Origin: Hydractinia symbiolongicarpus
Lineage: Eukaryota; Cnidaria; Hydrozoa; Anthoathecata; Hydractiniidae
Assembly: GCF_029227915.1 (NCBI RefSeq)
Contig: NC_079888.1
Coordinates: 8,539,001-8,603,000, forward strand
Length of the DNA: 64,000 bases
Direction: 5' to 3'
Shown: in pieces, positions 22,876 to 31,514 of the stretch
Numbering within the stretch: the stretch's first letter is position 1
Layout: the number at the start of each line of letters is the position of its first letter
Made by a program: the position numbers and the translations under genes
Notes under the pieces: generated by a model
What the model was told of the DNA's origin: nothing
Databases searched by the model: none
What the model saw: only the letters and a program-made list of their open reading frames with translations

Positions 22876-25800
22876 ATGAGGGAGTACAAACTTGTTGTTT
22901 TGGGATCTGGTGGTGTTGGAAAAAGTGCACTGGTAAGTAAAAGTCCCTCTGCTGGCTGATAAAGTTCAAGTAGCAGTGATTTTTATGTTGTGGTTAGCCC
23001 TGCTGATTTCGGTGGAGTTACCCCGACAGTTGCTTTCATACTGCTTCTTAGATAGGTGCAGTCCACAAAAAGAGGGTGCAGACTCACTTATTATTCCCTA
23101 ACTCGCCCCAATTCCGAAATTTAAAACAGCGCGTTTATCAATTTCTTGACTCAAAAAAAGACTACTTTTGAAGTGTTATAATGAGTTGTGTGACCTTATT
23201 AACTATATATTTATCAAGCAAATTGTATCAAATGAGGTTTTTTAAAAACTCTAGGCCAAGGAGTTTTGAACAAAGTTTGTTCGTGGTACTAACAGACTTT
23301 GACCATCTTAGGCGATAGGCGTTTAGGCTTATCTGCTATGGTGTGACGAAAAGATTATTTAACATACCTTAAGTGGATAAATTTTGGCGGGAATTTAATT
23401 TAATGAATTTCAGTGAAAAACTGACTTTGCCAAATTTAATACTTGCCAAATTTAATACTTGCCAAAATTTATCCACTTAAGGTATTACATATATACATTA
23501 TAACAGAAACTGTAACAAAACTGAAACAAAATTATAAATAATATCTGTGGTTAGTTATGGAGACAGTTGGTAATGACAACAAGCTTATAATATTTGTTGT
23601 TGTTTTAGTTTATCCCACTATGTCAAAAACTCTGAACATACTTGAAGTCTGGCTTATTTTTTTTGCATTTTGAACACTTTTGTCAACAGTACCTAGGGCT
23701 CTAATAGAGCTTAAAGCTCTGAAATGGAGCATATAACCAGGAATCTTAGTTAATCTTCTGAAAAAATAAGAACACAAAGATTGTTGACTTTTTATTATGT
23801 TGATGCGTTAGGTATGTTGCATAAAGTTGATCCTTGGCTTGTTTGCCAAATTGGATTAAAACGGTGATAATATTCTGACACCATGTGTAGGGACGAGTTT
23901 AGGCATTTTCAGGGTTTTTGTCATTACCCAGAAACACCTGTGCTGTTTGATACTGCTTGGTACCACTTGAACTATTCCAGATGCAACACATATGTTGATT
24001 TGGGTCTTTCGTTGGCGTTTATACGCAAGTTTTAGGGTTTTTCAGAATATACAAATCTCCACCCAAAACCTTGTTGTGTTAAGAGTTATCCATTAACCTT
24101 TCATCTCTAAATTTCCATAACTATACCTAAGCTCTATCAAGACATCTCTTCAGTAAGCTCTAGCATCTTGTTGCCTGTGTTGACATTAAAAAGGGTTAAT
24201 TGGTACTCCCTTCTGTTTGTTTAAAGACCTTATTTGTGTGTTTATTAGTTTGTATTTATCAGGTGTTCATTTTAAATGTGCATGATGGGGACTGGATGAA
24301 GGTAAATAAACAAGTCTGCATAACTGCATTATTGTTGTTGGTACAATTTTGAAAATAAAATATGTTTTGTGTTAATTTAAAAAAAAACAATTATTTTAAA
24401 GTACCAAGGTCCAAAATATATATATTTCACCATTAGCCATTTTTTTGTCGATCTGGCAGAGCAATCAATAGCTCAGATATTTCCTCATTTCTCAGAATTG
24501 GGTGTGTCTTTGGTTGCACAAACTATTGCTCTCCCCTTACAGATAAGCCTTAAATGGTATTGATAATTTTGAGGAAACTTGCTGGAATTTATCAGTAAAA
24601 TCAGAATTTTTTTCTAAGATTTTGCTGGGAACTATGACTTGCTGTAATTTGTCTGATGCCAGTATTCTGAAGTATATCAAGAGGCTTGTCTATCTTAGAC
24701 ATAATATTTTTACACTGAGTTGTATTTGTCAGTGAAATAAAACTACAGAAGCGAACTTTGTCTTGAAAACTCCATCTTGTAAATTTGAGGAAACAGTAGC
24801 ATGTACGATGGCTAATATTTTACATCCCCAAAGTGTATTAAAATTTAACTTTTACATACTAATTACAATGGATCATTTTTTAAATTCAACCTTTCTTTTT
24901 TCACCTTCCTTTTTCCAACAACTTTTTTATTTTTTTATTTATTGGATTTGTCCCACTCTCTCACAGATTTCCAATATTTAATTTTGCTGCTAATATATTC
25001 ATCTACCAGTTCAAACTCTTTAAGGCTACTGTGAAATATAGAAAATGTATAAAAATAAAGAGTAGGTCATGTATGCACCCCTTTTTGTTTTGTTTTTTTG
25101 TATTCCTTTCTATTATGTTTGATGAGTTATTTAAAACTTTAATTTAGACTGTCCAATTTGTCCAAGGTATATTTGTTGAAAAATATGATCCAACTATAGA
25201 AGATTCATATAGAAAGGTTAGAAATATCTCTTTTTGTTTCATTTCAATGTTAGGTAAAACTTAACTCTAAATATACTTAGCTGGGGGATCACTATCTGTT
25301 TTAGATTCAATTACTTAAGTTCTAGAAGGAATTTTAACATTCTGTTTATAGTTTTTCGTAGCCAAATAAAAGTTATTTAACATATTTTTCGGTTTTTACA
25401 TAATTTGCATAAAAAAGGGCGAAGAATTTATCTTCAGGTAAAAGAATATCCCCCCTCCCTCTGTATATTTAGGGTAAGCAACCTTCAGTAATGATTTGTT
25501 AAACTTTTAAGAAGGACATTGTTTTTACGACATTGTGGTTAAACTCAATAATTGTTTTTGTTGTAGACACAATGTTTTCTGTAAATGTGAAGTATGTGTA
25601 ATTAATAAAAGTTGATTTTGATTGCAAGCCGCAGTTTCCACATAAAAAAGCCACATCTTGCATTCTTAGCATTACTACCTACACCTAATGTGGGTGTTGA
25701 AAGTCTTTCCTGTTTCTGAATAAAAATATGTGCAGGGTTTATTTTGATGTCTGCTACTTTTGTTGTTGTTTCTAGCAAGTTGAAGTGGATGGGCAGCAAG

Positions 25801-31514: not shown

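Follow-up and report, generated by a model that had tools for sequence, protein, structure and literature searches.

A Rap1 gene of Hydractinia symbiolongicarpus with three intact terminal coding exons, likely used as alternative last exons

Can a single Rap1 gene supply proteins that share one switch domain and end in different tails, or do the extra tail exons at this locus have another origin? The question was raised by a preliminary description of the DNA analysed here, a stretch of 64 kb (termed the window), in which five shared exons of a Rap1 gene were seen to be followed by three terminal exons, each with a CAAX tail of its own. The window corresponds to C14:8539001-8603000 of the genome that was searched. 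Every coordinate previously assigned to the Rap1 exons and acceptors checked out when the sequence was re-read, and the central claim, a single Rap1 gene carrying three intact terminal exons (A, B and C), was borne out, the differences between these exons being mostly silent and two of the products being already annotated. We consider it likely that Hydractinia Rap1 is one gene with three alternative last exons, generated by duplication of the last coding exon, and that exon 5 is spliced to A, B or C.

Five shared exons and three terminal exons

The coding exons are collected in Table 1. A GT is located directly 3' of each of exons 1 to 5 and an AG directly 5' of each of exons 2 to 5, and a sequence search of the window detected exons 1 to 5 in single copy within its 64 kb. 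Exon 5 closes with ...AAC TG, its final base being 26336, which confirms the earlier reading that this exon stops on TG. The acceptors at 27360, 28714 and 31373, each with an AG immediately 5', contribute C, C and T as first bases; the predicted completion of one common Cys codon was thereby verified (TG/C, TG/C and TG/T, giving TGC, TGC and TGT for Cys141). One donor, one phase and one Cys codon serve all three of these homologous last coding exons. Translation agreed with the further claim that each exon encodes TSAK (the G5 motif), the last helix, a distinct polybasic hypervariable region, a CAAX box and a stop, the resulting isoforms A, B and C having 185, 187 and 187 aa and the C-terminal ends CTLL, CVLL and CAIL, respectively.

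Table 1. Coding exons of the Rap1 gene, in positions of the window
Feature	Position	Strand	Remarks
Rap1 coding exon 1	22876..22932	+	start ATG, P-loop GSGGVGKS
Rap1 coding exon 2	25148..25216	+	switch I
Rap1 coding exon 3	25776..25832	+	DTAGT
Rap1 coding exon 4	25911..26051	+	
Rap1 coding exon 5	26239..26336	+	NKCD; ends on TG of Cys141 codon; donor GTAAGT
Rap1 alternative terminal exon A, coding part including stop	27360..27495	+	begins TFMETSAK
Rap1 alternative terminal exon B, coding part including stop	28714..28855	+	begins TFLETSAK; product is Rap-1b isoform X1 (P0002)
Rap1 alternative terminal exon C, coding part including stop	31373..31514	+	begins TFLETSAKQ; product is Rap-1 isoform X2 (P0001)

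When the tails were searched against the window by tblastn, each matched its own exon with an E value of 1.0e-24 (A), 3.6e-26 (B) or 4.9e-26 (C), and the best match outside the Rap1 gene reached only E 5.4; the match of the tails to exons A, B and C is no chance effect. Translation past an unspliced exon 5 donor runs ENW and then meets a stop. As the G5 motif lies inside the swapped part and this read-through stops at once, a complete G domain requires A, B or C, and the earlier statement that one of the three must always be used holds for a complete G domain. No fourth tail exon was detected in the window, and only A, B and C were close among the 85 genome matches listed for an isoform C query.

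Isoforms B and C are identical, letter for letter and over their whole length, to the H. symbiolongicarpus proteins P0002 (source name 'Rap-1b isoform X1') and P0001 (source name 'Rap-1 isoform X2'), respectively. When isoform A was used to query the protein representatives, none of the 46 candidates that passed, out of 47, was identical to A; P0001 stands for a cluster of three member sequences, inside which isoform A may be hidden. Comparison of isoform A with PDB, for which the best 60 of 811 distinct sequences were considered, gave 15 top rows that were all Rap-1b or Rap-1A (residues 1-167, 318 to 327 bits), followed by Rap2a at 231.5 bits and Ras-type entries at no more than 208 bits. The best match (E 1.7e-97) was Rap-1b, which we take to be the human protein. 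The Pfam Ras family was matched at 199 bits by isoform C and 198 bits by isoform B. Both the similarity of the G domain and the combination of a polybasic tail with a Leu-ending CAAX box place the locus within Rap1.

The genome search was performed with isoform C on 480,894,487 bases in 76 contigs, the best candidates being scored and 85 matches listed at an E value of 1e-3 or less. Among these 85, close Rap1 matches were confined to the C14 locus, to which six belonged, representing exons 2, 4 and 5 and the three tails; the short exons 1 and 3 gave no separate rows in the list. The best of the 85 off the locus were on C8 (68% over residues 2 to 54) and C3 (61% over residues 1 to 172). The C8 match was rejected as a second Rap1, as its frame resembles what we take to be R-Ras and as 6 kb contained only a single Rap1-like stretch. 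The C3 match is an intronless frame that presumably encodes Rap2. The locus is thus a Rap1 gene of H. symbiolongicarpus and apparently the sole one.

Several other features were observed in the window. A copia-type element (14122-19071; frame 14432-18820, plus strand) lies 3.8 kb upstream of Rap1, with a stop-to-stop frame of 1,462 aa matching integrase and RVT_2 and with two flanking 115-nt direct repeats; these are 100% identical, and the insertion is, therefore, probably young. A second copia gag-like frame (12381-12842; E 2.1e-4) fell below the Pfam cut-off. Also upstream of Rap1, on the opposite strand, the frame at 9604-10089 matches the Pfam family Rpr2/Rpp21/SNM1 of RNase P subunits (E 9.6e-19). 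The frame at 20680-21366 (plus strand, 228 aa) has no Pfam match and by eye resembles the C terminus of a reverse transcriptase of the LINE type.

Constraint on the terminal exons and rival explanations

The three terminal exons were compared over 25 alignable codons (75 bases). Base differences numbered 14 (A-B), 21 (A-C) and 19 (B-C), and residue differences over the same codons 2, 4 and 2. When the same numbers of changes were placed at random, the mean numbers of residue changes were 9.8, 13.6 and 12.4 for these pairs, and 0 of 5,000 draws was as low as observed for any pair. Although this neutral model is crude, assuming equal rates and one hit per site, the direction is clear and points to constraint on exons A, B and C. 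The dN/dS comparison suggested in the preliminary description (NG86, 27 codons) gave dN from 0.08 to 0.13 (A-B 0.10, A-C 0.13, B-C 0.08), dS being 2.25 for A-B and saturated, hence not computable, for A-C and B-C. Within the 900-nt flanks of the exons, those of A and B overlapping in part, exon-external similarity consisted of one 26-base match between A and C (E 0.009); this near-absence of flank similarity indicates that the exon duplication is old.

Exact matches to public annotation were returned for B and C alone, as would be expected if these two were the only working alternatives, exon A being a relic or of negligible use. We regard this as unlikely, as A keeps its acceptor, frame, G5 motif, helix and CAAX box, and as the 14 of 75 bases that separate it from B are accompanied by changes in just 2 of 25 residues. 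Full-length Rap1 proteins from elsewhere (P0011, P0012 and P0014) also bear CTLL tails, though scores place tail A no nearer to these than to some tails of other classes. Duplication of the whole gene in tandem, or an artefact of assembly, could also have left extra tail exons, derived from gene copies with missing or misplaced 5' parts. Tandem GTPase genes do exist in this genome, there being a pair about 4 kb apart at C12:6334339-6339218 (L002 and L003), presumably Ral-like, of which the second copy has diverged (84% over 171 columns) and ends in CVIS, not CVIL. Each of these copies has a first exon of its own, whereas exons 1 to 5 of Rap1 are single in the window, and a set of tandem whole Rap1 genes was rejected on these grounds; the C12 pair shows what whole-gene duplication looks like in this genome, and the Rap1 locus looks unlike it. 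An assembly duplicate is contradicted by the divergence of A, B and C, which at 14 to 21 differences per 75 bases is too great. Any origin from whole-gene copies or misassembly is, hence, highly improbable.

The remaining alternative concerns the mode of splicing. In a KRAS-like cassette arrangement, A and/or B would be spliced onward past its own stop and the transcripts would have one common 3' end. The five real Rap1 donors score 5.5 to 10.8, and a fair donor with a score of 8.4 (CAG/GTATGA at 29254) is present 399 nt downstream of the stop of B, as required for such use of this exon. An exon junction as far 3' of a stop as 399 nt would invite mRNA decay, however, and downstream of the stop of A donor scores stay at or below 2.8 for 857 nt, the next donor (6.1) being at 858 nt. 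The pyrimidine content of the acceptors of A, B and C was 0.79, 0.79 and 0.74, compared with 0.58, 0.79, 0.84 and 0.68 for the four other Rap1 acceptors. This pattern of donors and acceptors favours separate 3' ends of the CDC42 type over the KRAS arrangement, to which we assign a small probability. Poly(A)-like hexamers occur 3' of all three stops but are expected by chance in DNA of 66% A+T and are, hence, uninformative.

The preferred explanation is that the last coding exon of Rap1 was duplicated to yield three alternative last exons. Exon 5 would join A, B or C, each of which would add the third base of Cys141, the G5 motif, the helix, a tail, a CAAX box and a stop. Most likely, each exon would have a separate 3' end in the fashion of CDC42, and the choice of exon could be set by whether splicing and polyadenylation at the nearer exon precede transcription of the next one. 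The product would always be a complete Rap1 with constant switch regions, for which the Leu rule also predicts a constant geranylgeranyl anchor, the tail alone varying. RNA pairing between introns was considered as a selector and rejected: a search for ungapped inverted repeats of at least 14 nt detected three (19 to 25 nt, 80 to 84%), none of which links the exon 5 donor to the acceptors. Between exons B and C, at 30417-30474, there is a perfect 19-bp tandem array of 3.1 copies with a nearly palindromic unit (ACAAGCTCACGAGCTTGTA).

Tail exons in relatives and database proteins

Further tails were sought among database proteins, the tail classes being compared in sets of 22 rows and 15 rows picked by eye from 58 fetched proteins and the three isoforms; Clytia was represented by P0016, one representative of 26 members. 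P0029, a frame of 125 aa on a contig of 2,419 bases, runs from an intron into an exon identical to tail B (46 of 46 residues). Its intron aligns with that of the window only with gaps and stops, at 61% over 137 columns including the exon, and its source is probably a relative of Hydractinia. The two sequenced Hydractinia species are about 19 million years apart (PMC11067881, in excerpt). Scans of viral_contigs and genome_contigs for the DNA of relatives confirmed no relative.

Four other frames, P0004 to P0007, leave introns at the Rap1 tail junction and enter a B/C-type tail exon. Their first 27 residues are nearer to C (1 versus 2 differences), but the whole tail is nearer to B (81% versus 78% for P0004; score of 0.64 versus 0.51), and their assignment as C-type was, therefore, dropped. 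CTLL tails were found on the full-length Rap1 proteins P0011, P0012 and P0014 and on the fragment P0009. The bodies of the three full-length proteins are identical; that of P0003 differs from them at 1 of 141 residues but carries an unlike tail ending in CTIL, whose similarity is 0.32 to 0.39 to the tails of the P0011/P0012/P0014 class and 0.76 to that of P0008, a protein with a body four residues away. This would fit a second species with alternative tails and would also fit paralogues or sister species with fast-evolving tails. Hydractinia tail A scored 0.34 to 0.51 against the four CTLL tails and 0.50 to 0.52 against P0008, P0010 and P0055, and thus scores no higher with CTLL tails than with some of those ending in CTIL or CVLL. 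The two sets hint at tail classes across species, short of proving orthology. Three Rap1-like proteins, P0051, P0054 and P0056, have bodies one to three residues apart and tails ending in CVIL, CSIL and CCLF; these may reflect another animal group that varies its Rap1 tails.

Membrane anchor and comparison with known systems

The net charge of the tails after VRQ is +4 for A and +5 for both B and C, and Leu is the last residue of each CAAX box. An ending in Leu predicts geranylgeranylation by GGTase-I (PMC8242357, in excerpt), and the same geranylgeranyl group is, therefore, expected on all three isoforms. With the predicted prenyl group alike, differences in membrane address, if any, must arise through the basic stretch or through phosphorylation. 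Vertebrate Rap1 has a PKA serine before the CAAX box (PMC6212855, with the tails printed in PMC8242357, both in excerpt). A serine within the basic run before the prenylated Cys is present in tail A alone (KKKSGCTLL), the tail serines of B (KKKGGC) and C (KDPKKC) being located only further upstream. Judging from these motifs, our best guess is that Rap1 with tail A would be tunable by PKA and that Rap1 with tail B or C would be less so, their charge patterns differing. It is conceivable, but on the whole doubtful, that the alternative tail set is old within hydrozoans, that one Rap1 gene there yields both PKA-sensitive and PKA-insensitive Rap1, and that a three-way device like those of KRAS and CDC42 originated independently; the unlike tails on the near-identical bodies of P0003 and of P0011, P0012 and P0014 speak for it, and the odds of an old set are lowered because tail A is not tied to one class by score.

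The preliminary description knew of no described Rap1 gene of this design. No paper on alternative Rap1 tails was among those listed in the literature searched, of which several lists covered the top entries (12 of 90, 10 of 2,788, 10 of 55 and 10 of 60) and from which most subscription journals were missing, and 'Rap1' is not mentioned in the main text of three Hydractinia papers (PMC10368294, PMC11067881 and PMC10411563). To this extent the claim stands; it must be qualified in that two isoforms are annotated and the device is known from KRAS and CDC42. Apart from annotated isoforms X1 and X2, a Rap1 gene with three-way tails and with a swapped exon that includes the G5 motif appears to be undescribed.

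If the three-way tails of this cnidarian Rap1 are real, they would indicate repeated evolution of the device, and a tractable animal would offer a natural system in which the Rap1 switch is constant and the anchor alone is varied, the role of the tail being open to exon-by-exon removal. If, in addition, the hydrozoan tail set is old and the PKA split is true, one gene would cover a task that vertebrates divide between RAP1A and RAP1B. In KRAS the alternative-exon junction is placed after the G5 motif, whereas that of Hydractinia Rap1 is placed before it.

The vertebrate counterpart is the same protein in a different genetic arrangement: RAP1A and RAP1B are two genes, as the preliminary description had stated, encoding geranylgeranylated proteins that are 95% identical (PMC6212855, in excerpt), whereas Hydractinia has one gene with three last exons. 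KRAS 4A and 4B are homologous alternative last coding exons, each with a hypervariable region and a CAAX box; in human KRAS they confer four changes in the G domain, and exon 4A originated in the jawed-vertebrate ancestor (PMC9882654, in excerpt). Both genes thus encode a small GTPase with homologous alternative last exons, of which KRAS, a Ras, has two and Hydractinia Rap1 has three. CDC42, of the Rho family, has two alternative 3'-terminal exons, E6 and E7, each with a CAAX box, the proximal E6 having its own 3' end (PMC4870516, in excerpt). CDC42 gains palmitoylation through its E6 tail; tails A, B and C, by contrast, all end in Leu and contain no Cys after Cys141 except that of the CAAX box. 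The alternative-tail-exon device is, hence, known from KRAS and CDC42, and what appears to be new in Hydractinia is its occurrence in Rap1, in a three-way form and with the G5 motif in the swapped part.
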